A stretch of DNA of 50,243 nt from Nitrospiraceae bacterium (GTDB taxonomy: Bacteria > Nitrospirota > Nitrospiria > Nitrospirales > Nitrospiraceae), in assembly GCA_023248355.1 (NCBI GenBank), contig JAHFES010000005.1, forward strand, positions 1-50,243, in the 5' to 3' direction. The translations under genes were made by a program, and so were the position numbers. Under the pieces are notes generated by a model. The model was not told the DNA's origin, ran no database searches, and was given only the letters and a program-made list of their open reading frames with translations. Positions 18,592 to 35,184 of the stretch are shown here, piece after piece. Position 1 is the stretch's first letter, and every line of letters starts with the position of its first letter.

Positions 18592-20954
18592 CAGCGCGCT
18601 CCTAACCCGCCCATGGTGCCGTAATTCTGCGGCACCGCAACATGGATGCGTGGTTCGGCTAAATCCTCGTTGGTCATCTGTTCAACGATCAGCGACATAT
18701 ATCCTGATTGGTCACACCCATGGGCATAGGCATCGTGAATTGGTGATGCTGGCTCGCCGTGTTTCGGCACATTCCGTCGGTAGCGTTTCCAGCATTCAAT
18801 CAGGCGAGCGCATTTCGCGGCATCCACGTAGATGCGTGGGAACAATTGTCTGAGCGCCCGAATGCGCGCTTCCTGTGCGTTTTCCACGTTCGGTACCCGC
18901 TTGACGCGCCGACCAAACGATTTGAGGAGTTGGGCGTCGCTTTTCCCAGTCTGACGGCTTTCGGTCCAGCCGTCCCACGGCAGGAAATCATACCCCCAGT
19001 TATACGGGAGCGCCTTCAATTCGCCTGCGATTTCGTCCACCCGCTTGAACTGGTACTCCCGGTAATCAATGCAACGGACATCCGCGAGGCCACGCTGCCA
19101 CATACCGATCGAGGTCTGGTCATTCCACCCTAGATCCCACACCGTATGCACCTTCAGCCGCGGATCATACGGGACTCGTGTGATCCGCCCTTCCTGGACC
19201 ATCGCCGCAACCTCGTTAGCGAAAATGGCACCAGACAGCGCCGCTCGACATTTGCCGAGCCAGGTATGCTCGTAATCGTCCTTGGGCTTCATGATTTCAT
19301 CATGCGCCCGCTCCGCTTCGAGTTCGGCGGAGAACCACGGATTATCGCGGTAGGTTGTGTGGACCACGACGGCCCCAGGAGGCGGCACCGTGATAAATCG
19401 GAGGTAGGTTTCGTCGGTATCCAATTCGGGATTGAACGAGATCCAGATTTCCGAGCCTTCCTTGCGAATCGTCGGGACGAGGATATCCCAGGACTTTTTG
19501 CTCACCGCTTGGGCTTCCTCGATCCACACCTTATCTATCCCCTCGAACGATTTGATCGAGGTCACGGTGTGGTCGGCGAGTCCGGCGAAAATGAACAGGC
19601 TCCCATTGAGGCCACGGATTTCCGTATCGAGCACAGTATAAAATTGGTCGAGACCGAGCAGACTGATTTGATCGCGCAACAGCGTATGCACGGAATCACG
19701 GATGGATTTTTGAATTTCTCTCGCGCACAGGATGCGAAGCGGCGTGGTCGCCGCAGCAATCAGCAACGCACGGGCGTACGTCCACGAATTATGCGTTACG
19801 GTTCCATCGGCCAGCAAAAAGAGATGGTCGCCATCCAAGGAAAATCCTGCCCATTCGCCGTTGTCTATGCGGTCAATGCTGATTTGGGATAACAACCAGT
19901 CTTTATTTTTGTGCATCTCTTCTTGTCTGGCTTGCTTGCGCGGAATTCTGCATGGGATTCGCCACAGATCCCCACCGATCGATACCCGCCACGCAATTCC
20001 ACGAACACCATTATTTGCACAGTGGGTAGAGAATCGTACAATGCGAGTCCGAAACCCAAGCGTATCTGCGAGGAATTTGATCTGATGAGCTAGGCGTTCA
20101 TTGACCTGGCAGATATTGTAATGATGGGTTTTCTTATAGGTTCCATCCGTGTCCAGCAACCCCGCTAATAATTCTAGACGGACCTTATCGGCATTGGCGA
20201 GGTAGGCGTGTGGGATGTGCTTGTTATTCGGAAGCTGATAGGCTTTGAACTTCTCCCACAGCAGATTCTTCCTTCCGTGTTTGCACAGGAGTCCAATATC
20301 ACGGGCGCGAGAATCTTTCTTGTTCACCGTAATGTCCCCGCCGTGCTCTTGTGCAATGGTGCGACACGCTTCCACAATTTCTTGATCCGCCGTCGTCACG
20401 CGCATTTCACGGCTCGTCCCATCTCCGAGCCAGACACCGAGAAAATACGGATCAATCGTGATGGCTTGTGCTGGAAAATACAGGAGGCCTGCTCGATAAC
20501 CTCGGAAATGAGCGAGCCATCGTTGGCTTTGAGATGCCGCCACTGTCACACCCACGTTCGACACATCCGGCCATGAGGGATAGCGTCCTCGTGGGCACTT
20601 AGGATTCCCACTTGGCATCAGGCGAATATCGCGCTTCGAGGATTCCGATTTCTTGAGGGAGAGGATGTGGGCATCGTTGACCACGTAGGTCATGGCTGAG
20701 GTTTGGCGAACTCGATACAGTGGGCCCACACCTCGTGAGGTACCCAACACGGTGCGTGGCAGGCTGTCAGGCCCCATCAGCAACTCTCCGCAGCGCACAT
20801 CCTCAACGTTCCGCAGGGTGCCATCGAACATAATGACTTGCGTCCCGAGCGCGAGGCATTTGAGTCCCCCCCGACCGCCCCACGCAATCTTGTAGCGATG
20901 CGGCTCGACGAGAAACCGGAACTTTCGGGGCAATTTGATTGCGACCTCGGACAT
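18591..20954 (-). CDS. terL: terminase large subunit (PBSX-type) interrupted by an intein
   Basis: Exteins read AWGGRGGLK|SWTYARALL (Walker A), VWIEEAQAVS (Walker B), SFNPELDTDETYLRF, HTVWDLGWNDQTS (nuclease). Intein occupies aa 33-389. Confidence 0.92.
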   Translation of the reverse strand: MSEVAIKLPRKFRFLVEPHRYKIAWGGRGGLKCLALGTQVIMFDGTLRNVEDVRCGELLMGPDSLPRTVLGTSRGVGPLYRVRQTSAMTYVVNDAHILSLKKSESSKRDIRLMPSGNPKCPRGRYPSWPDVSNVGVTVAASQSQRWLAHFRGYRAGLLYFPAQAITIDPYFLGVWLGDGTSREMRVTTADQEIVEACRTIAQEHGGDITVNKKDSRARDIGLLCKHGRKNLLWEKFKAYQLPNNKHIPHAYLANADKVRLELLAGLLDTDGTYKKTHHYNICQVNERLAHQIKFLADTLGFRTRIVRFSTHCANNGVRGIAWRVSIGGDLWRIPCRIPRKQARQEEMHKNKDWLLSQISIDRIDNGEWAGFSLDGDHLFLLADGTVTHNSWTYARALLIAAATTPLRILCAREIQKSIRDSVHTLLRDQISLLGLDQFYTVLDTEIRGLNGSLFIFAGLADHTVTSIKSFEGIDKVWIEEAQAVSKKSWDILVPTIRKEGSEIWISFNPELDTDETYLRFITVPPPGAVVVHTTYRDNPWFSAELEAERAHDEIMKPKDDYEHTWLGKCRAALSGAIFANEVAAMVQEGRITRVPYDPRLKVHTVWDLGWNDQTSIGMWQRGLADVRCIDYREYQFKRVDEIAGELKALPYNWGYDFLPWDGWTESRQTGKSDAQLLKSFGRRVKRVPNVENAQEARIRALRQLFPRIYVDAAKCARLIECWKRYRRNVPKHGEPASPIHDAYAHGCDQSGYMSLIVEQMTNEDLAEPRIHVAVPQNYGTMGGLGAR
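19788..20858 (-). mobile_element. full-length LAGLIDADG intein (357 aa) inserted in the TerL P-loop
   Basis: Cys1 block A CLALGTQVIMFDG; block B VVNDAHILSL; LAGLIDADG motifs YFLGVWLGDGTS and ELLAGLLDTDGTY; block F/G DGDHLFLLADGTVTHN followed by Ser+1. Confidence 0.95.
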
Positions 20955-22336: not shown

Positions 22337-22365
22337 TTGACTTTTCACAAGACGCGAGCTATAGT
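22337..22365 (+). promoter_or_regulatory. sigma70-type promoter TTGACT-17-TATAGT
   Basis: -35 at 22337..22342, -10 at 22360..22365, spacer 17 bp. Confidence 0.65.
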
Positions 22366-22371
22366 CCATTC

Positions 22372-22479
22372 AGACGAGTGTGATAGCAGCACATAATTGT
22401 CACGAATGTGTTCGGGGGAAACCCCATCGTGGTCCAATGGAATCTGCTGCTATCAGGTTCCGGCGGACCACTTTTTTTT
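22372..22479 (+). ncRNA. structured ~108-nt leader/small RNA ending at an intrinsic terminator
   Basis: Promoter just upstream. GGGG-GAAA-CCCC GNRA hairpin. 11-bp TGATAGCAGCA/TGCTGCTATCA pairing mutually exclusive with the terminator. Confidence 0.6.
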
Positions 22480-22600
22480 CACCCGCCGTCAGGTGTTCAG
22501 TCGCCTCTCCTGAGTCCACGAAAGACGAAGCCGGACGCCATTCCTCGAACCTGGCACCACGCACCACCGGTATTGATAGGGTCCGCCAAGATCGCATCAC
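22400..22600 (-). CDS. possible small protein, translationally coupled to the next ORF
   Basis: Minus ORF starting at a TGATG overlap. Antisense to the ncRNA, so doubtful. Confidence 0.3.
   Translation of the reverse strand: MMRSWRTLSIPVVRGARFEEWRPASSFVDSGEATEHLTAGEKKVVRRNLIAADSIGPRWGFPRTHS
22429..22479 (+). terminator. intrinsic terminator
   Basis: GTGGTCC-AAT-GGAATCTG-CTGCTAT-CAGGTTCC-GGC-GGACCAC followed by TTTTTTTT. Confidence 0.8.
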
Positions 22601-22884
22601 CGATGCTTGGGAATCCCGTTGGAATCAGAGTTAAGGGAATCTCTGGTTAGCCTCAGATACACCGTTTCGTGACCGCGTGTGACAGAGTGATACCAAACTC
22701 GATATGTTCTGAACTCAGACCGTCCTAAGATCTGAGTATCAAAATCCCTTAATGGGGGAGCGGAGAAAATGAATTGGGATCGGGTCGCGCAAAATTGAAT
22801 CAAACTAGGCATGAGTCTTGTCCCGTCGTTTCCTTCCAATACCCTTTCAGCATTGAGACTCATTCTCATCATCATTTCTCTCAC
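22597..22884 (-). CDS. possible small hypothetical protein (GTG start)
   Basis: AAGGAGG-5 nt-GTG upstream; MREMMMRMSLNAERVLEGNDG...; no recognisable domain. Confidence 0.35.
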   Translation of the reverse strand: MREMMMRMSLNAERVLEGNDGTRLMPSLIQFCATRSQFIFSAPPLRDFDTQILGRSEFRTYRVWYHSVTRGHETVYLRLTRDSLNSDSNGIPKHR

Positions 22885-22939
22885 GTCATCCTCCTTGCAA
22901 ATGAGACTCATTCTCAGCCTACGTAGTCTCACCTACGTA
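22854..22939. promoter_or_regulatory. operator-like cluster: two identical 15-bp TGAGACTCATTCTCA sites and two CCTACGTA direct repeats
   Basis: 22854..22868, 22902..22916 (48 bp apart); CCTACGTA at 22918..22925 and 22932..22939. Confidence 0.6.
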
Positions 22940-22970
22940 TTCAAAGTTTGATCTTTTTTCGTCAGCCCCC

Positions 22971-22999
22971 TTGACACGATCCCACCGCAGTAGTATAAG
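22971..22999 (+). promoter_or_regulatory. early promoter TTGACA-17-TATAAG
   Basis: -35 22971..22976, -10 22994..22999, 36 bp upstream of the first early start codon. Confidence 0.8.
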
Positions 23000-23034
23000 T
23001 ATCCTACCATTATATTTCACCCAGGGAGGACACC

Positions 23035-23286
23035 ATGCACACCCTACCGACGACCGACAGCACGTACATCGGAGAAACACGATACGACAGGAGGGATCTC
23101 CATCGTGAACTTCGCTACTCGAACGGGAGCCAGGTGTGGCCGGGCTATGCGGGCACCACGCTCCGGCGTGGCTACTGGCTCGGCACCCATGCGAGCCATG
23201 AATACCTCGGACGACTACGCGAGGCGCGTGCTTTTCTCGCGCAGAGCCACATCGAAGTGCTCACGTCTCATCCTGTGGGTAGATGA
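23035..23286 (+). CDS. early hypothetical protein
   Basis: GGGAGGACACC-ATG; first gene after the early promoter. Confidence 0.65.
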   Translation: MHTLPTTDSTYIGETRYDRRDLHRELRYSNGSQVWPGYAGTTLRRGYWLGTHASHEYLGRLREARAFLAQSHIEVLTSHPVGR

Positions 23287-23357
23287 TCTGACCACGTACC
23301 GATACCAGCACGGACGGACGCCAACCAACGATCATGAGCGGAAGGAATGGGTGATGA

Positions 23358-23732
23358 ATGACGGTCACACGATACGAACTACAAGCAGAGGTCTCGGTGG
23401 TCGCAGAGGGACAACCTTATGAAACGCCGGATACGCTCCGCAGAGGATCAATTCTTGTCTCGGAGTATGATTATGATGCCCTCTACGCCGAAGCCGAGGC
23501 ATTGAAAGCCAGGATCATAGAATTGGAAGCCCAGCGCGAGACACAGCGTGGGCAGGCATTAGACCAAGCCATAGCCAATCAACTCCTGCAAAAGGAAATA
23601 GACAGGCTGAACGCAGAAGCAGGATTGCCGTGCTCCGCATGGGATAGCCGCTGCATGCAACTCGAACAACAACTCAAAGATGTACAGGCGCTCTATGCTG
23701 AATTGCTGTTCAACGTAGGGAGGACATCATGA
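23358..23732 (+). CDS. early coiled-coil hypothetical protein
   Basis: 124 aa with heptad-like AEALKARIIELEAQRETQ segment. Confidence 0.65.
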   Translation: MTVTRYELQAEVSVVAEGQPYETPDTLRRGSILVSEYDYDALYAEAEALKARIIELEAQRETQRGQALDQAIANQLLQKEIDRLNAEAGLPCSAWDSRCMQLEQQLKDVQALYAELLFNVGRTS

Positions 23733-23872
23733 CACTGCATACCGTCAGCCTGTACCCGCGCCCGAATCGACACCGTGACCCCTCATGCCTCGCCGACGTG
23801 GGCGACCTGGTGGCCGTCGGGGTGCTGGGATTTTTGCTCTACTGCATTGTGATTATCCTGTTCGCAACCTGA
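23729..23872 (+). CDS. small membrane protein (47 aa)
   Basis: Read directly; ATGA overlap; ...DLVAVGVLGFLLYCIVIILFAT*; TM helix. Confidence 0.6.
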   Translation: MTLHTVSLYPRPNRHRDPSCLADVGDLVAVGVLGFLLYCIVIILFAT

Positions 23873-23940
23873 CCAGAAGGTGAAACGGTTGTTCGCAATA
23901 GCGAGGCCCAGCATGGGCAGGAGGAAGAAGGAGAGAACCC

Positions 23941-24141
23941 ATGAAGAGGGAACACGAGAGGCTTGAAGGCACGATTGTCATAGTCGCAGCGTATTCGGGT
24001 AGTGGGGACCCAGTATATCAGCGGAAATTGCACGGTTACCATGCAAAGGATGGGTTACAAATGGCTCTCCATAATACCTTGCATGATTTTCGTAGTTTTC
24101 ACTGTCAGATAGTCCAAGGCCATGAAAGGAAAGGAATGTAG
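23941..24141 (+). CDS. early hypothetical protein
   Basis: 66-aa ORF preceded by GGAGAGAACCC. Confidence 0.55.
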   Translation: MKREHERLEGTIVIVAAYSGSGDPVYQRKLHGYHAKDGLQMALHNTLHDFRSFHCQIVQGHERKGM

Positions 24142-24143
24142 CC

Positions 24144-24575
24144 ATGAATACGTCCGAGAATGAATATGAGGTCCGCGCTCTCAGATTGCGGATTGATGCA
24201 GTTGATCTTGAACGTATCCAGTTACAACGTGATCGATGGAAAATGGTAAATGCTTACGGCCAATTGGAAACGCTCCTGCGGAGTGTGGAGAAAGAGCGAG
24301 ACAACTACAAAAAACTGTGGATCTTAGAGCATGGAGATATGGAGCGCGACCGCGATCAGTGGCGGGAGCTGGCCACGACCCTCGCTGGTGCCCAGAAAGT
24401 CAATCTCAAAGTCATCGAGGCCTTACAGGGATGCCACGACCGGACCGACGGCAAACTCCTCACATCGTGGGAACGGATTATAGTGCTCCGACAGCAACTC
24501 GACACGGCGAACCATCTCGTCATGGCCATGCCGCCTAGAGACACCATCATCCCTCCCACTGGCGGTGTCATATGA
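24144..24575 (+). CDS. early coiled-coil hypothetical protein
   Basis: 143 aa, highly charged helical. Confidence 0.6.
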   Translation: MNTSENEYEVRALRLRIDAVDLERIQLQRDRWKMVNAYGQLETLLRSVEKERDNYKKLWILEHGDMERDRDQWRELATTLAGAQKVNLKVIEALQGCHDRTDGKLLTSWERIIVLRQQLDTANHLVMAMPPRDTIIPPTGGVI

Positions 24576-24724
24576 TGCAGGGAGAAAGAAGATGCCGTGG
24601 GTGCGGCTCGCGATTCAAGCCATCTCCCGCAGTGCTCAAAGATCGTGCGGTCTGGTGCCCAAGCTGCCTGGAGCGATTCGATGATCACAGGCGTCGATCC
24701 ATGAGAGAGAGGATACGACCATGA
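24572..24724 (+). CDS. small zinc-ribbon protein (50 aa)
   Basis: MMQGERRCRGCGSRFKPSPAVLKDRAVWCPSCLERFDD; CxxC...CxxC; ATGA overlap. Confidence 0.65.
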   Translation: MMQGERRCRGCGSRFKPSPAVLKDRAVWCPSCLERFDDHRRRSMRERIRP

Positions 24725-24912
24725 CCCCATTTTACGTTGGATTTGTGGTAGGCTTCGGCCTCGGATTCATGGCGACCTTGTGTGGCCTGGGAATGTGGCT
24801 CCTCTGGCTCCTCTGGCTCGACTGGCGGGCTGAGCGGCGCTGGAAACGGGTCTGGTCCACACACGCTCAACACGCTATGGAGAGGAGGTATCCCCATGAA
24901 ATCGAGCAATAG
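24721..24912 (+). CDS. small membrane protein
   Basis: MTPFYVGFVVGFGLGFMATLCGLGMWLLWLLWLDW; TM; ATGA overlap. Confidence 0.6.
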   Translation: MTPFYVGFVVGFGLGFMATLCGLGMWLLWLLWLDWRAERRWKRVWSTHAQHAMERRYPHEIEQ

Positions 24913-25084
24913 TGGACGAGTGAACTACCTCGACGGCGAGATGGTCGGGAAAGGGCGGCAGATCCTGACACGGATGGACGGGACCACACGCAAAGCGTCG
25001 ATGGCGAAAGCCAGGGGAAAATCCGCCCAAACCCAGCAGGTGAAGGCCATGCTACGCCGATTGGACAAGGAGGGCATTCGATGA
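24896..25084 (+). CDS. early hypothetical protein
   Basis: MKSSNSGRVNYLDGEMVGKGRQILTRMDG..., ATGA overlap with the next gene. Confidence 0.55.
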   Translation: MKSSNSGRVNYLDGEMVGKGRQILTRMDGTTRKASMAKARGKSAQTQQVKAMLRRLDKEGIR

Positions 25085-25542
25085 AAATTGCAGACATACC
25101 CAATGCTCCTGTATGGCTGAAGCGCGCCAAGGTGTCAAACGAAAATGTCTCGGTGGACAAAGACGGATATGTCACCTGGAGGGGCGGCACCTGGTGGGGC
25201 GGCACCTGGTGGGGCGGCACCTGGTGGGGCGGCACCTGGTGGGGCGGCACCTGGAAGGGCGGCACCTGGTGGGGCGGCACCTGGAGGGGCGGCACCTGGA
25301 GGGGCGGCACCATAGGCCGACACCCATCAGAGGCCGCCCCATTCGCCATTTCAGGGCTGAAATGGCCCGTCCTCTATGGATCTCGCGCACTGACAATCGG
25401 GTGCCAATCGCACACGTATGAGCAGTGGGATTTGTTTTCGCCTCAGGATTTTGCTGCGGTGCACCCTGAGGCGTGGGCCTGGTGGCAGACCTGGAAAACG
25501 CGAATCTTGGCGCTGAGGCCAGTGAAGGAAGGTATCCGATGA
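25081..25542 (+). CDS. GGTW(W) pentapeptide-repeat protein
   Basis: (GGTWx)n tract followed by [25 protein letters not shown]... C-terminal domain. Confidence 0.75.
25174..25312 (+). repeat. tandem 15-bp repeat ggcggcacctggtgg, about 9 units
   Basis: Direct reading. Confidence 0.95.
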
Positions 25543-25838
25543 AATCAGGCCCAAAAACAGAAGCAAACCCACAGGAGATGATCCCAGAACTGGCCCTAGC
25601 GCTGGCCGTGGTCGAGCAGGCCCTGCATGATCTCACCCAGCCCACACGACTGCGGGAACGAGGCATGCCTGATGTGGAAATTGATCGGGCCATGCAGCAA
25701 TACATGGACGCGAAAGATTTTCTGCTGGTACGGCTCAACGACGAGGATAATCACTGGGGCAATATCCTGAGGCTCTACGGCTATGTGCCGCTCACGCCGG
25801 GCCGATTGATCCACGTGAGGCGGAATAAGGGTGATTGA
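25539..25838 (+). CDS. early hypothetical protein
   Basis: [32 protein letters not shown]...; ATGA overlap. Confidence 0.6.
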   Translation: MKSGPKTEANPQEMIPELALALAVVEQALHDLTQPTRLRERGMPDVEIDRAMQQYMDAKDFLLVRLNDEDNHWGNILRLYGYVPLTPGRLIHVRRNKGD

Positions 25839-25841
25839 GCC

Positions 25842-26000
25842 GTGATGATGCGCGACGAGCCGGAATCAGATGAAGACTGGGCAGAACGAATCTGTCCAGC
25901 GCACCAAATCGAATATCCCTGCCGTCGATGCCTCGCCGAGGACCGGCTGCAAGCGGCGATTGATCGGGCAGAAGACATCCAGAGAGGAGAATCATCATGA
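25842..26000 (+). CDS. small zinc-binding protein (52 aa, GTG or downstream ATG start)
   Basis: ...ICPAHQIEYPCRRCLAEDRLQAAIDRAEDIQRGESS*; ATGA overlap with the next gene. Confidence 0.55.
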   Translation: MMMRDEPESDEDWAERICPAHQIEYPCRRCLAEDRLQAAIDRAEDIQRGESS

Positions 26001-26437
26001 CCGGGAAAGACCACAAAAAACCGATCACCAAAACAAAAATCAGCGTGACCCTCACGCCCGACATCCTCGCGTGCATTGATGCACGAGGCGACAACCGGAG
26101 CGCCGTGCTCAACCGAGATAGCACACGCTATTACCGGTTCCTGGCCGACACCTGCGCGGCGCTCTCCACGCAATTTTCCTCCGCCGAACTCTCGCTGATT
26201 GTGGACGCCTGCAACAACGGAAATTGTTGGGAAACATTAGATCGCACCGTCAAAACAGAAACCCGACGCCGCAAACTCGATAAAAAATGGAAAGTGCCTG
26301 AGCCGCTGGACCTCATTGAACGACTCTGCAACCTCACGTGGCTCGAAAAAGCCGCCCTCTGTGACGCCGTGGAGCGATTCTGGCATGCCGCCGGAGACGA
26401 CGAGACCGTGTACAATCCAGCACAGGCATTAGACTGA
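25997..26437 (+). CDS. ribbon-helix-helix-like regulator
   Basis: TKTKISVTLTPDILACIDARGDNRSAVLNRDSTRYYRFL N-terminal RHH pattern. Confidence 0.55.
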   Translation: MTGKDHKKPITKTKISVTLTPDILACIDARGDNRSAVLNRDSTRYYRFLADTCAALSTQFSSAELSLIVDACNNGNCWETLDRTVKTETRRRKLDKKWKVPEPLDLIERLCNLTWLEKAALCDAVERFWHAAGDDETVYNPAQALD

Positions 26438-26475
26438 AGAAGTACCATTTTGAATCATTGTGTGCCATTTTGTGC

Positions 26476-26504
26476 TTGACACAATACCTGAGAGCGCGTA
26501 AAAC
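26476..26504 (+). promoter_or_regulatory. promoter TTGACA-17-TAAAAC with TTGTG/CACAA inverted repeat over the -35
   Basis: -35 26476..26481, -10 26499..26504; just upstream of the small RHH gene. Confidence 0.5.
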
Positions 26505-26510
26505 AGAGCT

Positions 26511-26663
26511 ATGAAAAAACCAACCGCCCCCGCACTCATTCGCATTGCCGCCACACTCACTCCCGCGCTCATCGCTAAAATCGACGCGGAACGTCAAGAT
26601 CGCTGTAGTCGCGCCAGCATCGTTCGCATGGCGCTGGTGGATCGCTACAAACGCAAACGGTAA
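26511..26663 (+). CDS. CopG-like ribbon-helix-helix protein (50 aa)
   Basis: MKKPTAPALIRIAATLTPALIAKIDAERQDRCSRASIVRMALVDRYKRKR*. Confidence 0.7.
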   Translation: MKKPTAPALIRIAATLTPALIAKIDAERQDRCSRASIVRMALVDRYKRKR

Positions 26664-26672
26664 GGAGCACCT

Positions 26673-26903
26673 ATGACAAAAGCGGAAAGAGAGTTGCTGG
26701 GCCTCGCCATTGCTACCACCATCGGCGCAGATCATCAATTCGTGTTGCTGCTGCCGCCTCACGATAAGGGAGGGCTGGTGGAAATCATTGCAAACATCGA
26801 CGCACCCGATATTGCACGCCTGCTGATGGAAAGCAGGGAAATGTTTGCGAAGCACGCCTACACTCGGATCGCCCCCAAGCGCAAAAATATTGAGGACAAC
26901 TAA
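26673..26903 (+). CDS. early hypothetical protein
   Basis: 76-aa ORF with AAGGAG RBS. Confidence 0.6.
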   Translation: MTKAERELLGLAIATTIGADHQFVLLLPPHDKGGLVEIIANIDAPDIARLLMESREMFAKHAYTRIAPKRKNIEDN

Positions 26904-26919
26904 GGAAGGAGACGCACAC

Positions 26920-27078
26920 ATGACAGGGAAAGAACTCAAAACGTTTGCCATGGCACTCTACGACGATGCCCTCATCTGTGTGCGAGAGCGATCGTACGGA
27001 GCATGGACAGACGAGTTTCAGATTCAAGCCACGACCGAACGAATCTATCCAGAACCAGACAAGGAGACCAACGCATGA
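26920..27078 (+). CDS. early hypothetical protein (52 aa)
   Basis: MTGKELKTFAMALYDDALICVRERSYGAWTDEFQIQ...; ATGA overlap with the next gene. Confidence 0.6.
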   Translation: MTGKELKTFAMALYDDALICVRERSYGAWTDEFQIQATTERIYPEPDKETNA

Positions 27079-27707
27079 CCACCGTACACACACAGACCGC
27101 TCTCACCGATGCTGGCGCACTCATCACCCGAGCACAACAGGCCGTGACCATACGGACGACCCCGACGAGGCAGGATGCCGCGACGCTCTGGAGTCTCATC
27201 CGCACGGCCAGAAAAGCCCTTGAATCGGAGCAAGACACGGTATGCGGACCACTGAAGGCAGACTATGAGCGCGCTCGCGCCCCCTATCTTGAGGGGAGAA
27301 AGGAGTGTGAGGCGTGGGAATCTCGGCTCCAAAAAGCGATGGGCGACTGGGATCGTGAACAGGAACGGCTTGCGCGGGTCGAACAGGAACGCCTCCAAGC
27401 GAAAGTCGATGCCCAGAATGTGAAAATCCTGGAAAAGGCTGAGGTGAAAGGAATCGAACCGGTGCTTCGCGTGGCTCCCGTGGTCCAGGCCCCGCCGAGG
27501 TCCATCGAAACTCAAGCGGGAACCATCCAGAGTCGGAGTCGGCGAAACGTCTACACGCCGACGAATCTCGTGTCCCTGATGAAGGATTTCCCGCAGCTCT
27601 TTGAGCTGAGCCTATCGAAATTCAATGCCTTGGCGAAAACCGGCATTCTCGACGGGCGGGCGGACGTGACCGTGACAGAGGAATTCATTTATTCCCAAAG
27701 AGGATAA
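27075..27707 (+). CDS. coiled-coil phage protein of unknown function next to the recombination nuclease
   Basis: 210 aa; long helical KADYERARAPYLEGRKECEAWESRLQKAMGDWDREQERLARVEQERLQ. Confidence 0.6.
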   Translation: MTTVHTQTALTDAGALITRAQQAVTIRTTPTRQDAATLWSLIRTARKALESEQDTVCGPLKADYERARAPYLEGRKECEAWESRLQKAMGDWDREQERLARVEQERLQAKVDAQNVKILEKAEVKGIEPVLRVAPVVQAPPRSIETQAGTIQSRSRRNVYTPTNLVSLMKDFPQLFELSLSKFNALAKTGILDGRADVTVTEEFIYSQRG

Positions 27708-27712
27708 AGACC

Positions 27713-27988
27713 ATGCGCCAAGACGAAGATGAAAGCGATCATGCAGGATTCGCACGTGCCTTCCGTGAACTGCGAGCGCGACACGGGTTCACGATTGCGG
27801 AATTGGCCATCATCCTCCAGTTCTCGCCGCAATATATCTCAGACTTGTTGAGCGGGAGACGCGCCCCATCGGTCCTGGTCTGCTCCCGCATTGCGGCGTG
27901 GCAGAGCGAGCGCAAGGTAGTTGATGCCGCGCCGTTCCGACAGTATTGGCATCGGTTAGGTGCCAGGGCGCATGGGTGGGACGTATGA
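27713..27988 (+). CDS. XRE/Cro-family HTH regulator
   Basis: FRELRARHGFTIAELAIILQFSPQYISDLLSGRRAPSVLVCSRIAAW. Confidence 0.75.
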   Translation: MRQDEDESDHAGFARAFRELRARHGFTIAELAIILQFSPQYISDLLSGRRAPSVLVCSRIAAWQSERKVVDAAPFRQYWHRLGARAHGWDV

Positions 27989-28581
27989 AATTGCACTCAC
28001 AGCGCGGGCGCACGCGAGAATACCGCGACCTCGACACGCAGAAGGATTTTTTCAGCGTCTCGCAAATCCGTGCCACGATGCTCGACCCCTATCAGGGTGT
28101 GCCAGCGGCGGCACTGGAAGCAGCCCGGCAACGCGGCACGCTGCTGCATACGCGATTCTGGAAGGTGCTCGCGGCACGGGGAGGACTGTGCGAACATCCC
28201 GCAATGATTGACCTGTATGCAGGCCAGTGCCGAGCGATGGACGAATGGGCCGAGAAAAATCAGGTGGTGCCAGTGCGCCTCGAAGAGCCCGGATGCAATC
28301 TCACCTATGGCTACGCCGGGACACCAGACGCCCTTGTGCAGCACGGCCCACAACAGATCGTGGTGTTGATCGACCTCAAAACTGGCGCGAGGACGGCGAC
28401 CGACGGGACGCAGTTGCTATTATATCGACGGATGGAAGGGTACACGGACGCACGACGGATGATCGATTTATACGTTGTTGCGGATGGGAGCTACAAAGAA
28501 ACGGAGCAGAAAGCAGATCCTCGCGCTTGGGCAGCCGCACTCTCAGCGTTAAACCTGCTCACATGGAGAGCGAGCCTATGA
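27985..28581 (+). CDS. PD-(D/E)XK family nuclease
   Basis: GTLLHTRFWKVL...GYAGTPDALVQHGPQQIVVLIDLKTGARTATDGTQLLLYRR. Confidence 0.75.
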   Translation: MKLHSQRGRTREYRDLDTQKDFFSVSQIRATMLDPYQGVPAAALEAARQRGTLLHTRFWKVLAARGGLCEHPAMIDLYAGQCRAMDEWAEKNQVVPVRLEEPGCNLTYGYAGTPDALVQHGPQQIVVLIDLKTGARTATDGTQLLLYRRMEGYTDARRMIDLYVVADGSYKETEQKADPRAWAAALSALNLLTWRASL

Positions 28582-28973
28582 ATCGCACACCACTCCCCTC
28601 TCGCCGTGGACACATCACGCACAAGGTGAGCATCGGAGGACGACAACGAACACTGTACCTCTCAGTGGACGAAGACGCGCAACCACATGAAATTTTCCTG
28701 CGGATCAAGGGCCAGGGCTGCACCGCCGAACTCGTCAGTCTGTACGATACCCTCGCCAAGCTGATGAGCCTGGCGCTTCAATACGACGTGCCGCTCTCGA
28801 AGATCGGAGAAATGCTGATCGGGACCAAGTGCGCCCCGTCTGGACCCGTGGGGGGACATGCACGAATCAAATTCTGCAACTCACAACAGGATTTTATCGG
28901 GCGGCATCTGCTCCTCACGCATTGCCACCGTGAGGACTTGGCCCATGTCACGAAAAAAGAGGAGGCAACATGA
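28578..28973 (+). CDS. stand-alone TSCPD-like domain (NrdJ C-terminal-like)
   Basis: PLPSRRGHITHKVSIGG...EIFLRIKGQGCTAELVSLYDTLAKLMSLALQYDVPLSKIGEML...PSGPVGGHARIKFCNSQQDFI...EDLAH. Confidence 0.75.
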   Translation: MNRTPLPSRRGHITHKVSIGGRQRTLYLSVDEDAQPHEIFLRIKGQGCTAELVSLYDTLAKLMSLALQYDVPLSKIGEMLIGTKCAPSGPVGGHARIKFCNSQQDFIGRHLLLTHCHREDLAHVTKKEEAT

Positions 28974-29155
28974 ACAACGACGACCTCGACCTCGTGGCGA
29001 CACAACTTGGAAACGAGGTGCCGTGGGAGACCTGCGGGAAACTCATGACGCACGCCGGATGGAGAGAGGCCGTGGAAACCATCAAAGCCCTCTGCCCAGA
29101 CGCATATCTCGGCCTGGTCGCCTACACCAAGCACCAGCAGTCGCTCTTATCCTGA
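28970..29155 (+). CDS. early hypothetical protein
   Basis: 61-aa ORF with ATGA overlap. Confidence 0.55.
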   Translation: MNNDDLDLVATQLGNEVPWETCGKLMTHAGWREAVETIKALCPDAYLGLVAYTKHQQSLLS

Positions 29156-29157
29156 AG

Positions 29158-29222
29158 GGAGAAACCCATGACTCCCAACTTATACATGGGACGTTTTAGT
29201 TCATTCCAAATGGGAGATTCCT
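29158..29222 (+). promoter_or_regulatory. H-type pseudoknot-like leader able to sequester the Shine-Dalgarno of the RDF-like gene
   Basis: CCCATG(29165..29170)/CATGGG(29185..29190) interleaved with CTCCCA(29172..29177)/TGGGAG(29211..29216). Confidence 0.4.
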
Positions 29223-30503
29223 ATGAAATACACCAAAATCAAAAGCGGATTTAGCGAAAATCGGCGCATCCCACGCCTCGGTCGTATTCGTCTCGGCCTC
29301 AAAATGCAAAAGCAGAGGACGGATGGATCAACCGTGGAATTTCCAACGGAAACAGATTATTTCGTCTGCCCGCAAGAAGTGCAGGACGTGTATGGCCCCA
29401 AACCAACTGAGCTAGATATTATGTTGCCGTCTGATCGCAATGAAGATGTGTTTCCGCAAAGTCTCGCCTGGTTTGGCCGGTCTAAAGGGCTCAAATGCAA
29501 AGGAGATATGGAAACAGCGGAGCGATTGAACGAACAGACGGGAATATGGGAGCCGCGAACATGTCCCTGTGAGCACTACAAATCAGACCAGAATCCGAAA
29601 GGCGAGTGTACAGAAAACGGCATTCTCATCTCCATCCTGCCACGAGTCAATATGGGCGGGACGTATCAGCTACGGACGGGCTCCTACCATTCGACGGTGG
29701 ATATCAATTCTGGTCTCGATTATGTCCGGGCCTTAGTCGGACGTATTTCGATGGTGCCACTGAAATTGAAGCGCGTGGCCAGAGAGACCCATAACAACGG
29801 AACACGACAAATCCATCATACGCTCTCACTTACCATCGAGAGCAACATCGAAGGGATCAATCAGTTGCGTGGCGATACCTCACGGATTCTGTCTCACGCA
29901 CAACTGCAAATTGAAGGCCCGCTCGAAGAAAATCCTGTGCTCGATCCTCCCGATGTAACCGAGATTGACGCCATGCCACCTACCGACTCCGACGAAGCCG
30001 AGCTTGCCACAGTGCACGCAAAACTTGCGGTACGACGGACGCCCACACCACAAGAAGCTCCTGCTGCATCCTCAACGGTCGCTGTGCCCGTGATAACCAA
30101 ACCTGTGCTTGACACTCTGATCGCGCAAGCAGCGGGTAATTATCAGACGCACGGCACGGGCGATGCGCTGTATCAGTCGTCTGCACCCACCAGTGTCCCA
30201 ACCTGTCCCACCTGTGGCAAATCAGAGTCCGTCATTAAAAGTAAAGCGGAATATGGCGGGGGCTGGTGTTGTTACAAGAAAAAGAATGGCTGTGGAGCCA
30301 AGTGGTGGGAGGCCACGACTGCGCCCGTCCCCGCCACGCCATTTTTCACCGCCTTCCAGGATGTGATGGACTGGTTGCTGGCCTGCGGGTCCATCGCAGA
30401 AGTGAACGATACGATTGAGCGAGCAGCCAAACAAAATTGGCTCCCAGAACAGGAACATCTCATTGATACCACGGCGCAGGCGGCGAGAGAACGACTGCGA
30501 TGA
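29223..30503 (+). CDS. recombination directionality factor-like (Gp3-like) protein with C-terminal zinc finger
   Basis: CPCEHYKSDQNPKGECTENGILISILPRVNMGGTYQLRTGSYHSTVDINSGLDYVRALVGRISMVPLKLKRV; C-terminal CPTCGKSESVIKSKAEYGGGWCCYKKKNGCG. Confidence 0.7.
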   Translation: MKYTKIKSGFSENRRIPRLGRIRLGLKMQKQRTDGSTVEFPTETDYFVCPQEVQDVYGPKPTELDIMLPSDRNEDVFPQSLAWFGRSKGLKCKGDMETAERLNEQTGIWEPRTCPCEHYKSDQNPKGECTENGILISILPRVNMGGTYQLRTGSYHSTVDINSGLDYVRALVGRISMVPLKLKRVARETHNNGTRQIHHTLSLTIESNIEGINQLRGDTSRILSHAQLQIEGPLEENPVLDPPDVTEIDAMPPTDSDEAELATVHAKLAVRRTPTPQEAPAASSTVAVPVITKPVLDTLIAQAAGNYQTHGTGDALYQSSAPTSVPTCPTCGKSESVIKSKAEYGGGWCCYKKKNGCGAKWWEATTAPVPATPFFTAFQDVMDWLLACGSIAEVNDTIERAAKQNWLPEQEHLIDTTAQAARERLR

Positions 30504-30796
30504 AAAGGGCAAGGACACGTACTCCTCGCACGTTCGGTCGGACGTTTGAACTGTTGTGGGCGCTAGAGAGAGCCGGTCTGTATGCGACTCTCAAACTGTT
30601 TACCGATGGAACTGGGCATTTGCATTTGCATCAAGCCATCATTTCAAGTGCCGTCGTCACGTTCCTTGAGCAGGAGGCGTTGAAACCTTTGGCAGGTCAG
30701 TGGGCGTACGATGAGCGAGGCGATCTCATGCTCGTGTTACGCTACCAGAATAGGAGCGACGGCAGCGGCGGCGACGGCAGCGGCTACGGCGGCTAA
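30500..30796 (+). CDS. early hypothetical protein
   Basis: 98-aa ORF; ATGA overlap. Confidence 0.55.
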   Translation: MKRARTRTPRTFGRTFELLWALERAGLYATLKLFTDGTGHLHLHQAIISSAVVTFLEQEALKPLAGQWAYDERGDLMLVLRYQNRSDGSGGDGSGYGG

Positions 30797-30812
30797 CGAG
30801 AAGGAGCGGCGG

Positions 30813-30968
30813 ATGAAACCCACATCGGCTGAAACGGCGGTGATCGTGCTGGAATTCAAGTGCGGCAAACCGATCAAGCAGATCGCCGACGAATGGGGAT
30901 GGTCGGTGCGAAAAGTGGAACGGGCGATTCGGCGTTGGCTCAATACGTATCCAGAGGGGAAACTATGA
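30813..30968 (+). CDS. small HTH protein (51 aa)
   Basis: MKPTSAETAVIVLEFKCGKPIKQIADEWGWSVRKVERAIRRWLNTYPEGKL*; AAGGAG RBS. Confidence 0.6.
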   Translation: MKPTSAETAVIVLEFKCGKPIKQIADEWGWSVRKVERAIRRWLNTYPEGKL

Positions 30969-31723
30969 AACTCACCACAGATTTTTTTAAGTCACGCAAC
31001 GCTTGTGCCGAGTGGCTGATCTATTTCGAGGCCACATTTGGATTCGAGGCTGACTATCAGGTGGTGCTGGATCGGCTGGCGAAAGAGAACCGGGTATCCT
31101 TGGCACACTGGCTTTTGAAGACGGTGGGGCCAATCGATGAAACATTGGAATTGTCTGGCGATACCAAAATAGAGGGGCATCTATTTGTTGCAGGACATCT
31201 ACATTGTTCAGCAAATATTTCAGTGTCTCTCAGCATCGAGGCTGGGTCAGGCATCGAGGCTGGGTGGGGCATCAAGGCTGGTGAGGGCATCGAGGCTGGG
31301 TCAGGCATCGAGGCTGGGTCAGGCATCAAGGCTGGGTCAGGCATCGAGGCTGGGTCAGGCATCGAGGCTGGGTGGGGCATCGAGGCTGGTGAGGGCATCA
31401 AGGCTGGGTCAGGCATCGAGGCTGGGTCAGGCATCGAGGCTGGGTGGGGCATCGAGGCTGGTGAGGGCATCAAGGCTGGGTGGGGCATCAAGGCTGGTGA
31501 GGGCATCAAGGCTGGTGAGGGCATCAAGGCTGGTGAGGGCATCAAGGCTGGGTCAGGCATCGAGGCTGGGTCAGGCATCGAGGCTGGTGAGGATTTTGGC
31601 ATCTATTGTGGGCTCTCCGTGTGCCTGTCGATGAAAGCGAACTATGCAGTGCTGATCGCCAAGGATCGACCGAAGAATTTGCTGCTAGGAGAATATCGTC
31701 AACTATCAGGATGTAAACTATGA
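30965..31723 (+). CDS. hexapeptide-repeat (xGI[E/K]AG) beta-solenoid-like protein
   Basis: MKLTTDFFKSRNACAEWLIYFEATFGFEADYQ... then about 20 units of (S/W/E)GI(E/K)AG. Confidence 0.8.
   Translation: MKLTTDFFKSRNACAEWLIYFEATFGFEADYQVVLDRLAKENRVSLAHWLLKTVGPIDETLELSGDTKIEGHLFVAGHLHCSANISVSLSIEAGSGIEAGWGIKAGEGIEAGSGIEAGSGIKAGSGIEAGSGIEAGWGIEAGEGIKAGSGIEAGSGIEAGWGIEAGEGIKAGWGIKAGEGIKAGEGIKAGEGIKAGSGIEAGSGIEAGEDFGIYCGLSVCLSMKANYAVLIAKDRPKNLLLGEYRQLSGCKL
31232..31588 (+). repeat. tandem 18-bp repeat, about 20 units with higher-order 72-bp duplication
   Basis: Direct reading of ggcatc(g/a)aggctgg(gtca/gtgg/tgag) units. Confidence 0.95.
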
Positions 31724-31729
31724 AACATC

Positions 31730-31921
31730 ATGATATATAAACACCGAGACAAATGGATGCATTTTGATGAAGGCATCGAAGTGCTTCTGTGTTCGTTTTA
31801 CGCATCAGGCCAGGATGGAATTCATATTCCAGCGACCGTCCTCCTGCGTGCTCTTCAACGTACGGGGCTTCTACGTCAATGGGACCGGAAGCGACAGAGG
31901 TTGAGAAAGATCACACTATGA
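31730..31921 (+). CDS. early hypothetical protein
   Basis: 63-aa ORF; ATGA overlap with the RusA gene. Confidence 0.5.
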   Translation: MIYKHRDKWMHFDEGIEVLLCSFYASGQDGIHIPATVLLRALQRTGLLRQWDRKRQRLRKITL

Positions 31922-32412
31922 CCCAAACCGTATACATCACCGGCACGCTCCCTGGACTGAATGAGATCATTGCCGCATCCAAGGTCAGACGTGGAACCTG
32001 GTCAAAATACCTAGATATGAAAGGTGATTATGGTGCGATCTGCCGTGATGCAATTCTACAAGCAAAGCTAAATACCGTAGGTAATCCAGTCCGTATCACC
32101 TGTGTCTGGTATGAAAAGAACAAACGACGTGATCCCGACAATATCCGCACGGGATTCAAGTTCATCGGAGATGCGCTGGTACAAATGGGAATCCTCGCCA
32201 ATGATGGCTGGGCACAAATCCTGTCAATTGAAGATCGCTTTGTGGTGGATCGGGCGTTTCGGGGGGTGGTGGTGACGATGACGGAGACGGACGCCGGATT
32301 GTCGTGTCCACGAAAACGCCCGGTCTATTCGATTGGGAAACGAGTGACAATATTGCGTGGGAGCTGTGGCATGGCCAATGGGCCGGCCCGCTCCTCCCAC
32401 CAGAGGCCTTGA
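31918..32412 (+). CDS. RusA-like Holliday junction resolvase
   Basis: ITGTLPGLNEIIAASKVRRG...WYEKNKRRDPDNIRTGFKFIGDALVQMGILANDGW. Confidence 0.8.
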   Translation: MTQTVYITGTLPGLNEIIAASKVRRGTWSKYLDMKGDYGAICRDAILQAKLNTVGNPVRITCVWYEKNKRRDPDNIRTGFKFIGDALVQMGILANDGWAQILSIEDRFVVDRAFRGVVVTMTETDAGLSCPRKRPVYSIGKRVTILRGSCGMANGPARSSHQRP

Positions 32413-32660
32413 TGGCAGAACCTGAGTATGACGATCTATTTCCCGTTTCGTACTACCAAAGCAACGTTGCACAGTTTTTGCTGGATCGACACAACGATCT
32501 GATTGCCACATTTGACTGCGTGCGGGATAGGGCTGAGTGTGAACGTGTTGTCGAAGCGTGTAACCAATTCTCGGCTCTCCGTGTCGAGGTTGAAACCCTG
32601 CGACAGGAAATAGATAAGTTGAAGTCGGCCTTGGCTGAAGGCGGCCTTGGCTGTGTGTGA
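32304..32660 (+). CDS. early hypothetical protein
   Basis: 118-aa ORF with coiled-coil end; 109-nt overlap with the RusA ORF. Confidence 0.5.
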   Translation: MSTKTPGLFDWETSDNIAWELWHGQWAGPLLPPEALMAEPEYDDLFPVSYYQSNVAQFLLDRHNDLIATFDCVRDRAECERVVEACNQFSALRVEVETLRQEIDKLKSALAEGGLGCV

Positions 32661-32693
32661 TCACGCGATCAGCACGACAAGGACGGAGGAGCT

Positions 32694-33011
32694 ATGACCG
32701 AAGCACACGCGCTCGCGCTCTTAACCGCATCGGGCTTTCTGTGTGACCCTGATGAGGACGATCCAGACGCCGCCCACACACTACGCATGAACGATGTGTG
32801 GGCATGGGGAACCGCAGACGCCGAGTACATCCCCGACGACGCCTTGCCACACGTGGCCGATCTCTTTCTCTGGTACGGCTGGTGCGGCATCCTCTATTGG
32901 GTCAGTGAGCAACGCGGGCAGATGCGGTCTGAGTGTGACAACGTCAACCGCTGTATTGACTTTGTGCGAACAGAAGAACAGTTGAAGCGGGAACGTCATT
33001 CGGAGGATTGA
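32694..33011 (+). CDS. early hypothetical protein
   Basis: 105-aa ORF preceded by GGAGGAGCT. Confidence 0.65.
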   Translation: MTEAHALALLTASGFLCDPDEDDPDAAHTLRMNDVWAWGTADAEYIPDDALPHVADLFLWYGWCGILYWVSEQRGQMRSECDNVNRCIDFVRTEEQLKRERHSED

Positions 33012-33016
33012 CGAAG

Positions 33017-33169
33017 ATGATGCCCATTTCCGACGACCTCAGCCTGAAGATCGCCGCCTATAATCTCACGGCCTATCTGCAATTCACGCCGGTCGCCGAC
33101 TGGGACATCGAGCAGATCCAGGCGGCGCTGGCGGCGATTGCGCGAGGGGGAGACTCAACTGGTGGCTGA
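33017..33169 (+). CDS. small hypothetical protein (50 aa)
   Basis: MMPISDDLSLKIAAYNLTAYLQFTPVADWDIEQIQAALAAIARGGDSTGG*. Confidence 0.5.
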   Translation: MMPISDDLSLKIAAYNLTAYLQFTPVADWDIEQIQAALAAIARGGDSTGG

Positions 33170-33185
33170 TGGGGATGAAATAACG

Positions 33186-33871
33186 ATGACACAACAAAAC
33201 GAGTGGCTATCACTGCCGGATGGCGTGCGACCCTATTACGAAGAGCCTGGCATTGTCATATTTCATGGGGATTGCCGCGAGATTCTGCCGCATTTACCGA
33301 AGGCGGATCTGACCCTGACTGATCCACCTTTCGGCATTAACCATGCTTCTGGGCATGGAGCCTCATGGCAAAACACAGTCATTCAAAACGACCATTCCGT
33401 AGAAGCCAGGGATGCAATCTTAGATTATTTAAGGGACTTGCCTGCCATAGTATTCGGAAGCTGGAAAGCTCCACGACCAGCCCACACTCGGCAAGTATTG
33501 ATCTTTGATAAAGGCCCAGCGTTCGGGATGGGGGACCTGTCGTTCCCGTGGAAGAATAGCTTTGAGGAAATTTATATCATTGGCGATGGATTCGCAGCAG
33601 ATAGGCGAGACGAGGGTGTTATCCGTGGGCACTTTACGGCGTTCTCTGAAGCTGCAGGAAGAGTCCACCCTAATGAAAAGCCGGTAAGCCTGCTGCAATA
33701 CCTGATGTCTCGCCACCCAGGCGAAACCATCCTGGATCCATTCATGGGCAGCGGGCAACACTTCGTGCTGCAAAGGATCTAGGCCGCAAATGTATCGGTA
33801 TCGAGATAGAATTGAAATACTGTGAAATCGCCGTCCGTCGGCTTCAGCAGGAGGTATTGGAGTTGACGTAG
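33186..33871 (+). pseudogene. beta-group DNA methyltransferase with a -1 nt frameshift after motif DPFMGSG
   Basis: TDPPFGINHASGHG and DPFMGSG present. Adding one nt at 33755/33756 restores [41 protein letters not shown]. Confidence 0.8.
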
Positions 33872-33890
33872 AAACGACTTCGCGCATTAC

Positions 33891-34133
33891 GTGAAAATAG
33901 CCAACTCTTTTATGATAGTGAAGCCACAGCCGGATAAAAGTGTGGGCGGCGAGCCGTACTGGTCCATCGGAGGCTTTCGGCTACGGGCGTCGGCGACGAA
34001 TCCGCTCCGCTGTCCGTATGGCACAGTAGGGGATCGGCTCTGGGTACGAGAGACGCATTATCGGCATGGCCGCTGGGTGTTTCAATCCTTGTTTTGGTGG
34101 AACTCCCTTTCAGACCCTCCTTTCTCTTTCTGA
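33891..34133 (+). pseudogene. remnant of an ASCH-like/hypothetical phage protein truncated by the CRISPR-like repeat
   Basis: IVKPQPDKSVGGEPYW...RCPYGTVGDRLWVRETHYRHGRWV, then the frame runs into the 38-nt repeat. Confidence 0.55.
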
Positions 34134-34189
34134 ATGTGGCTACGCGATCTGGTTTCAATCCTTGTTTTGGTGGAACTCCCTTTCAGACC
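34079..34189 (-). CRISPR. mini-CRISPR array: two identical 37-38 nt repeats, one 35-36 nt spacer
   Basis: GTTTCAATCCTTGTTTTGGTGGAACTCCCTTTCAGAC(C) at 34079 and 34152. Reverse complement ends in ATTGAAAC, typical of CRISPR repeats. Confidence 0.8.
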
Positions 34190-34218
34190 TTGACAGATGA
34201 AGCGATCTCGCGTAGTCT
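34190..34218 (+). promoter_or_regulatory. promoter TTGACA-17-TAGTCT immediately after the second CRISPR repeat
   Basis: -35 34190..34195, -10 34213..34218. Confidence 0.55.
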
Positions 34219-34224
34219 TGCACC

Positions 34225-34343
34225 AACAACTATCACGCTTGGAATCAGCAAGCGGCAGGTGTTTCTGGTTCCATCGTAAGATGGCGCCTGAACACAAAGG
34301 GCGCTCCTGGTGCTGATTCCACCGGATAGCGCCCTTTCTTTTT
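34225..34343 (+). ncRNA. structured leader / attenuator of the replication genes, paralogous in architecture to 22372..22479
   Basis: TGGAATCAGCA (34240..34250) complementary to TGCTGATTCCA (34311..34321) in the terminator loop; CCATC-GTAA-GATGG GNRA hairpin; terminator at the end. Confidence 0.55.
34296..34343 (+). terminator. intrinsic terminator
   Basis: AAAGGGCGCT...AGCGCCCTTT 10-bp stem with inner GGTG-CTGATTC-CACC, followed by CTTTTT. Confidence 0.8.
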
Positions 34344-34377
34344 GGGAACAGAACGGTATGAAGGAGGGTAGACGGCT

Positions 34378-35184
34378 ATGTATCGGACAATCTGTACAGA
34401 GTTATGGACTGATCCCAAAGTTAAAGCCCTATCCACTGACGGGAAATGCCTATTTATCTACCTCATTACAAACCCGCATACGCATATGTCGGGCATCTAC
34501 TATTGTCCCGCCTCGTTCATGGCGGAAGAATTGAAGCTATCAGTCAAGCGCATAAATACCCTATTAGATACCCTATCGATAGGGGATCTAGCGTGGTTTG
34601 ACAAGACAACCTCGACCGTCTTCGTTGTCAATATGTTTGCATATCAAGGCAAGGGGGCAAAAAACTATGCGTGCGCAGCTTCACATCTCGCAACCCTACA
34701 CGCTTCCTCACTAATTCGACGATTCATCGATCAATATCCAGACGTTTCTTCATACGGTATCGATACCCTATCGATAGGGGATACGGTTTTGACTGTTCCT
34801 GTTCCTGTTCCTGTTCCTGTTCCTGATTCTGATTCTGATTCTGAAGATGGGGAGTCTGAGGGGAAGATGATCGCATGGATTGTTGGACAGTGGGGGATGA
34901 TTTCAGGTGTGAAGCCGGTCAGGAAGGTAGGGAAGGATTTGCGAAAGCGTCTCAGGACATCTCTACAGGTGCATACTGAGCGGGACTGGTGGGTCAATAT
35001 GTTTGCCCGCGTGGGTCAATCTGACTTTTTGTGCGGACGAGCGAATACGTTTGCGGCATCATTGGACTGGATTCTCGGTCCGAAGAATTTCGAGAAATTT
35101 GAAGCAGGCAACTACGATAACCGGCAAGGCGGCGTGAGCCGCATGATGCAAAACTTTGTCGCACGAGGGGAGGAGATGGCATGA
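34378..35184 (+). CDS. phage replication initiator-like protein (O-like)
   Basis: N-terminal winged-helix pattern DPKVKALSTDGKCLFIYLITNPHTHMSGIYYCP, low-complexity VPVPVPVPVPDSDSDSE linker, C-terminal FAASLDWILGPKNFEKFEAGNYDNR. Confidence 0.65.
   Translation: MYRTICTELWTDPKVKALSTDGKCLFIYLITNPHTHMSGIYYCPASFMAEELKLSVKRINTLLDTLSIGDLAWFDKTTSTVFVVNMFAYQGKGAKNYACAASHLATLHASSLIRRFIDQYPDVSSYGIDTLSIGDTVLTVPVPVPVPVPDSDSDSEDGESEGKMIAWIVGQWGMISGVKPVRKVGKDLRKRLRTSLQVHTERDWWVNMFARVGQSDFLCGRANTFAASLDWILGPKNFEKFEAGNYDNRQGGVSRMMQNFVARGEEMA
34556..34782. repeat. candidate replication origin iterons inside the replication gene
   Basis: 21-bp GATACCCTATCGATAGGGGAT at 34567..34587 and 34762..34782 (core palindrome CCCTATCGATAGGG) plus an extra half-site ATACCCTAT at 34556. 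Confidence 0.6.

Follow-up and report, generated by a model that had tools for sequence, protein, structure and literature searches.

A candidate family of phage RNAs whose 5' loop is complementary to their own terminator loop

What do two unlinked, similarly built cassettes, each running from a promoter to a terminator, do in a single phage genome? They lie in a 50,243-nt stretch of DNA from a Nitrospiraceae bacterium (contig JAHFES010000005.1, positions 1 to 50,243; here, the window), which encodes a tailed phage with a Terminase_3 large terminase containing an intein, an SU10-type portal, a capsid, RusA, and a DnaD-like helicase loader. An earlier inspection without database searches (the sequence-only reading) had taken cassettes 1 and 2 to be a candidate phage RNA regulatory family that recalls paired early-operon control elements. 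We find that the family, in which the loop of a 5' hairpin can kiss the loop of the terminator, is very probably real, and that the likeness to early-operon control is not supported.

Architecture of the two cassettes

Both cassettes contain a sigma70-like promoter with a 17-bp spacer, a 5' hairpin, a GNRA hairpin placed between the two kissing loops, and an intrinsic terminator with a 7-nt apical loop (Table 1). The promoters, spacers, GNRA hairpins, and terminator loops had been proposed by the sequence-only reading and are read directly in both cassettes; the same is true of its upstream 11-mers, which differ at three positions between the cassettes, with a compensating change opposite each. 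Folding shows that the 11-mer consists of the 7-nt apical loop of the 5' hairpin and its two closing pairs, and in both cassettes this loop is a perfect base-for-base complement of the apical loop of its own terminator, so that a 7-bp loop-loop (kissing) pairing is available. The 11-bp helix originally envisaged thus stands as regards its perfect complementarity, but it is better described as a loop-loop kiss than as a simple helix, and one variant (type iii, below) pairs exactly 7 loop bases.

Folding z-scores are -3.3 for cassette 1 and -5.1 for cassette 2. When the window was scanned for hairpin pairs on stems of at least 5 bp whose 7-nt loops are perfect complements within 160 nt, only cassettes 1 and 2 were returned on the plus strand; 0.033 such pairs per window are expected by chance on both strands (150 dinucleotide shuffles). 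As evidence of homology, two such divergent cassettes are by themselves weak, and a covariance model of cassette 1 scores cassette 2 at only 11.5 bits (E 0.44 in the window). The case for a family rests on other phages.

The design recurs in other phages

The IMG/VR phage contigs were scanned using the cassette 2 loop pair flanked by G and C as bait, and then by a terminator-first scan. Six contigs carry the whole design, with a TTGAC promoter, a 5' hairpin, a GUAA-tetraloop hairpin, and a terminator composed of a perfect 13-bp stem, the complementary loop at its tip, and a T-run. The bait fixed the loop identity in these six but not their architecture, GNRA hairpin, or spacing; the loops are 63 to 64 nt apart, compared with 64 nt in cassette 2. 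In a pseudoknot-free fold of the IMG/VR cassettes the two loops pair with each other. None of the window genes tested has a relative detectable by protein similarity in the IMG/VR cassette contigs.

Further relatives were found through the terminase of the IMG/VR phages, which was identified by motifs rather than by a family match. Type i loops (GAATCAG/CTGATTC) sit at a conserved IMG/VR locus, whose carriers include contig L198. At the same locus and behind the same promoter, L259 has a different RNA body with loops GTCGAG/CTCGAC (type ii), and L260, L261, L262, L263, and L275 have yet another body with loops GATCAAG/CTTGATC (type iii). In L270 (type iv), the body is alignable with type i, and the loops are ATGTCGAG/CTCGACAT. 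Types ii, iii, and iv were not selected by loop sequence, and types ii and iii were reached through the locus and promoter.

In every member (cassettes 1 and 2, types i to iv) the 5' loop is perfectly complementary to the terminator loop, although family members are otherwise recognized by this complementarity itself. All have a GNRA tetraloop between the loops: GAAA in cassette 1, GUAA in cassette 2 and types i, iii, and iv, and GGAA in type ii. A TTGAC-type -35 is present in both cassettes and types i, ii, and iii, the -10 is weak in types i to iii, and type iv lacks this conserved promoter. The complementarity in type iii is confined to exactly 7 loop bases, with a terminator of 14 bp, and L270 has a complementary stretch in a wide loop. 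In every type CU opens the terminator loop (in L270 an extra U precedes it) and AG closes the 5' loop; loops that were not selected by sequence have these ends too, and a geometric or protein-binding constraint may be the reason. Among 199 terminator calls in the loci examined (copies included), complementarity of the whole 7-nt loop at cassette distance is seen only in the cassettes.

Because unrelated phages carry the same design with different but matching loops, we regard the family as real and, as judged from these sequences, it is both fast-changing and undescribed. No Rfam model matches at the gathering threshold, and in E-value mode the best score is 24.0 bits, on the other strand, against a cut-off of 53.1. 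A literature search of open-licence papers returned no phage RNA of kissing-terminator design. The proposal of an RNA family made by the sequence-only reading is borne out, in that homologous structures occur in other phages, they covary, and they have no match in Rfam. Conservation is limited mostly to loop complementarity, the GNRA hairpin, and the terminator, which is why sequence-based searches miss these RNAs; a rule that asks for a terminator loop complementary to an upstream loop is applicable to all phage genomes. The family also constitutes a simple set of natural orthogonal kissing-loop RNAs.

Other searches returned little. No cassette was found in IMG/VR with the cassette 1 loops as bait, and no further cassette in scans of 2.2 Mb of loci with related terminase regions. 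A degenerate loop pattern run against 236 Nitrospirales genomes gave only the two window cassettes as recognizable fits, most other matches looking coding, and there is no similar DNA in phage records.

Covariation and apparent exchange of RNA bodies

In alignment A8 (L207, L209, L196, L198, and L270) pairing is complete (100%) in the kissing helix, and five of its seven pairs are changed on both sides. Over the whole structure there are 6 doubly changed pairs, compared with a shuffled mean of 1.3 (0/500 shuffles) and 0 to 1 in slid controls; all of the changes are carried by the L270 lineage, which makes this a single strong event and not a series. Further, independent loop pairs, not alignable base by base, come from types ii and iii and from cassette 1; the terminator stems covary.

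Two covariance models were compared, R3 built from the IMG/VR family and R2 from the window cassettes only, with E-values that come from short calibrations and are rough. The best R3 match in the window is cassette 2 (20.8 bits, E 0.0058), with all three hairpins in register. Conversely, the best R2 matches are the L207 and L209 cassettes (E 0.0006), and its best match in L260 is the cassette of that contig (E 0.007), despite its different loops. Models from either side thus recover cassettes of the other. The covariation is clear. In 79 Nitrospira genomes R2 recovers cassette 2 only, a negative that is uninformative since the filtered search also missed cassette 1, a training sequence; R2 run with filters likewise missed the IMG/VR cassettes.

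The different types appear to be exchanged as units. Over the 1.1 kb that stops one base short of the 5' loop, L198 (type i) is 97.8% identical to L259 (type ii); the two then differ in the RNA body and in several hundred bases beyond it, before identity returns at 99.6%; L259 and L260 similarly have both flanks in common and different RNA bodies. This looks like module exchange rather than drift, and in some phages the noncoding stretch after the terminator is exchanged along with the body. In L259 and L207 a long noncoding stretch, a few hundred bases past the cassette terminator, contains tRNA T-arm-like motifs (GGGTTCAATTCCC and GGGTTCTATCCC); no tRNA or tmRNA is called in the noncoding stretch downstream of the IMG/VR cassettes. 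Exchange of the bodies by recombination, together with the presence of 7- to 11-bp inverted repeats about 60 apart, is compatible with the complementary loops acting as DNA, for example as operator sites in inverted orientation or as an element that inverts or recombines. We consider this very improbable, as the complementary stretches lie in hairpin loops in every variant (the wide loop in L270) and next to a T-run, GNRA tetraloops recur, and the terminator stems covary.

Possible roles of the RNAs

Sequence comparison establishes the architecture, its recurrence in unrelated phages, complementarity kept despite loop replacement, and body replacement between conserved flanks. Each cassette would then be a gene for a phage RNA of ~90 to 120 nt, with its promoter, 5' hairpin, GNRA hairpin, and intrinsic terminator, in which the 5' loop would pair over its full length (6 to 8 bp) with its own terminator loop. 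On balance we lean toward stand-alone, type-specific phage small RNAs that are locked by this kiss and act in trans. The kiss would be chiefly intramolecular, tying the 5' end to the 3' end in a closed, stable RNA; linker arithmetic (about 2.8 Å per bp and 6 Å per linker nucleotide) indicates that this is feasible for every type, provided, in the case of cassette 2, that its middle hairpin opens at the basal stem. The loop pair would provide type-specific recognition, such that each RNA would recognize only itself or others of its type, and the window phage's two RNAs would act independently. Calculated loop-loop energies are -6.9 to -10.1 kcal/mol for cognate pairs and about 0 to -3 kcal/mol for most noncognate ones. 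In the least certain step, the RNA may be a trans regulator, most likely of transcripts of its own phage or of a co-infecting relative, with the terminator loop holding or releasing the seed in the 5' loop.

Several observations weigh against this interpretation. R3 has second and third window matches (E 0.022 and 0.025) that are probably chance, so that the detection of cassette 2 by this model is in itself modest. Cross-pairing is expected between types ii and iv, which have the core GTCGAG in common, and the sequences appear compatible with both intramolecular and intermolecular kissing. Matches of 10 nt to candidate targets elsewhere in the window are near the number expected by chance; the IMG/VR phages have a ~two-fold excess of overlapping 10-mers and no consistent target site. 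Finally, cassette 2 ends ~34 nt before the helicase-loader gene, with no promoter seen between, and possibly acts in cis within that operon, and the long-range helix of type i (~17 bp), which excludes the terminator, is predicted to be 2 to 5 kcal/mol more stable than the hairpins.

The last two points suit a cis attenuator, in which the 5' element pairs with or frees the terminator loop and upper stem in the nascent transcript, setting downstream read-through. This is unlikely to be the general explanation, because the ~490 bp between cassette 1 and the separate promoter beyond it hold no convincing gene, and because the closest family-assigned gene on the same strand in the IMG/VR phages starts ~630 nt downstream. 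Moreover, the type iii pairing of 7 loop bases is too short to displace a 14-bp terminator, and its hairpin state is favored by 5.6 kcal/mol. As an attenuator fits neither cassette 1 nor type iii, a trans-acting, type-specific RNA is favored.

With respect to early-operon control, cassette 1 is self-contained, having a promoter and a terminator of its own, and as there is a separate early promoter at 22971, it is not the early-operon leader. The suggestion that one cassette faces the early operon and the other precedes the replication initiator therefore survives only for cassette 2, which lies directly before the DnaD-like gene; cassette 1 is outside the early operon. The parallel with the HK022 put RNA, which consists of phage early-region elements with hairpins that act in cis on RNA polymerase and suppress pausing and termination (PMC9378689), is accordingly not supported: the cassettes have their own promoter and a strong terminator, and cassette 1 is not in the put-like position in the early transcript, just past the early promoter and before the early genes.

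A 12-nt perfect complement of the cassette 1 5' loop region is located at 8827-8838 in the minus-strand mRNA, within codons 6-10 of a gene starting at 8855. Approximately 0.6 such complements are expected by chance in the window, and the match may be fortuitous.

Relationship to known RNAs

The specificity types of plasmid antisense RNAs such as ColE1 RNA I/RNA II are set by fully paired 7-nt kissing loops, the two partners being carried on RNAs transcribed from opposite strands. The cassettes have similar kissing type loops and may work partly like these RNAs, but both loops are on one RNA. A more tentative extension is that the hypervariable, strictly self-complementary loop pair is an exchangeable type tag, with more than one orthogonal type per genome and bodies swapped between near-identical phages. 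It could let copies of one phage recognize each other, serving copy sensing or superinfection control. If this is true, the RNAs would form a new class and give phages an RNA-based recognition system with the exchangeability of plasmid incompatibility loops. The P4 CI and P1 c4 immunity RNAs are also short, stand-alone phage RNAs, with type-specific pairing to separate operon-leader sites; here, no separate target was found and there is no c4 match in Rfam.

A self-complementary loop pair within one RNA is a classic recipe for homo-oligomers, and neighboring copies might associate head to tail as dimers or rings, like the phi29 packaging RNA (pRNA), with a structural, packaging, or copy-number-sensing role. 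The phi29-family literature describes complementary loops (PMC12670572; PMC5340915) and pRNAs whose sequence varies strongly under a conserved structure (PMC12670572), as is seen here, and the large terminase gene is within a few kb of cassette 1 and of the IMG/VR locus. Intermolecular kissing of this kind nonetheless seems quite unlikely. There is no pRNA match in Rfam, no phi29-type packaging protein is seen, and the window large terminase matches Pfam Terminase_3. The three-hairpin, terminator-ended layout also differs, the window has two different types, one of them far from the terminase, and a fixed protein partner would be difficult to square with complete exchange of the RNA body in near-identical phages. 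The linkers also seem to have the length needed for the intramolecular kiss that we prefer.

The RNA anti-CRISPRs (Racrs; CRISPR, clustered regularly interspaced short palindromic repeats) are likewise small phage RNAs and mimic a CRISPR repeat (PMC10651486), and cassette 2 abuts CRISPR repeats. The cassette RNAs, however, match no CRISPR family in Rfam, and the adjacent mini-array is distinct from cassette 2.

Genomic context and neighboring features

Table 1. Coordinates of predicted features in the window (loops in square brackets)
Feature	Coordinates	Strand	Details
Cassette 1 promoter, sigma70-type, predicted	22337..22365	+	TTGACT 22337-22342, 17-bp spacer, TATAGT 22360-22365
Cassette 1 5' hairpin	22378..22394	+	GTGTG[ATAGCAG]CACAT, loop ATAGCAG 22383-22389
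Cassette 1 GNRA (GAAA) hairpin	22414..22425	+	GGGG[GAAA]CCCC
Cassette 1 intrinsic terminator	22429..22479	+	Hairpin 22429-22471, loop CTGCTAT 22447-22453 complementary to 5' loop, T-run 22472-22479
Separate early promoter, predicted	22971..22999	+	TTGACA-17-TATAAG, precedes open reading frame at 23035
Cassette 2 promoter, predicted	34190..34218	+	TTGACA 34190-34195, 17-bp spacer, TAGTCT 34213-34218; last CRISPR repeat one base away
Cassette 2 5' hairpin	34236..34254	+	CGCTTG[GAATCAG]CAAGCG, loop GAATCAG 34242-34248
Cassette 2 GNRA (GUAA) hairpin	34271..34284	+	CCATC[GTAA]GATGG
Cassette 2 intrinsic terminator	34296..34344	+	Hairpin 34296-34337, loop CTGATTC 34313-34319 complementary to 5' loop, T-run to 34344
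DnaD-like helicase loader/replication initiator gene	34378..35184	+	Directly 3' of cassette 2

Upstream of the early promoter, repeated GAGACTCATTCTCA boxes (22860-22925) are possible operator sites. Loci L097 and L098, which have related terminase regions, have an early promoter at the equivalent place and no cassette.

Directly before cassette 2 is a one-spacer CRISPR mini-array (34079-34188) with two perfect 37-nt repeats and a 36-nt spacer, for which no match was found in phage records or the loci examined. Nitrospira genome G023 contains an array with the repeat of the mini-array at 2 mismatches; cassette 2 was considered as a CRISPR leader and rejected, the leader of the G023 array being without visible similarity to it by inspection. 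An open reading frame at 33873-34130 resembles the middle of phrog_874, with the similarity stopping about where the first CRISPR repeat starts. From the sequence it looks as if the mini-array, perhaps together with cassette 2, has replaced the rest of a phrog_874-like gene.

The large terminase gene (18594-20954, minus strand) is split by an in-frame intein, which carries both a Hint domain and a LAGLIDADG-type endonuclease. A giant open reading frame of 3,879 codons occupies 37795-49434 on the minus strand, and proteins of ~3,000 amino acids are also present in the distant relative MW202426.1 and in IMG/VR phages G236 and G237.

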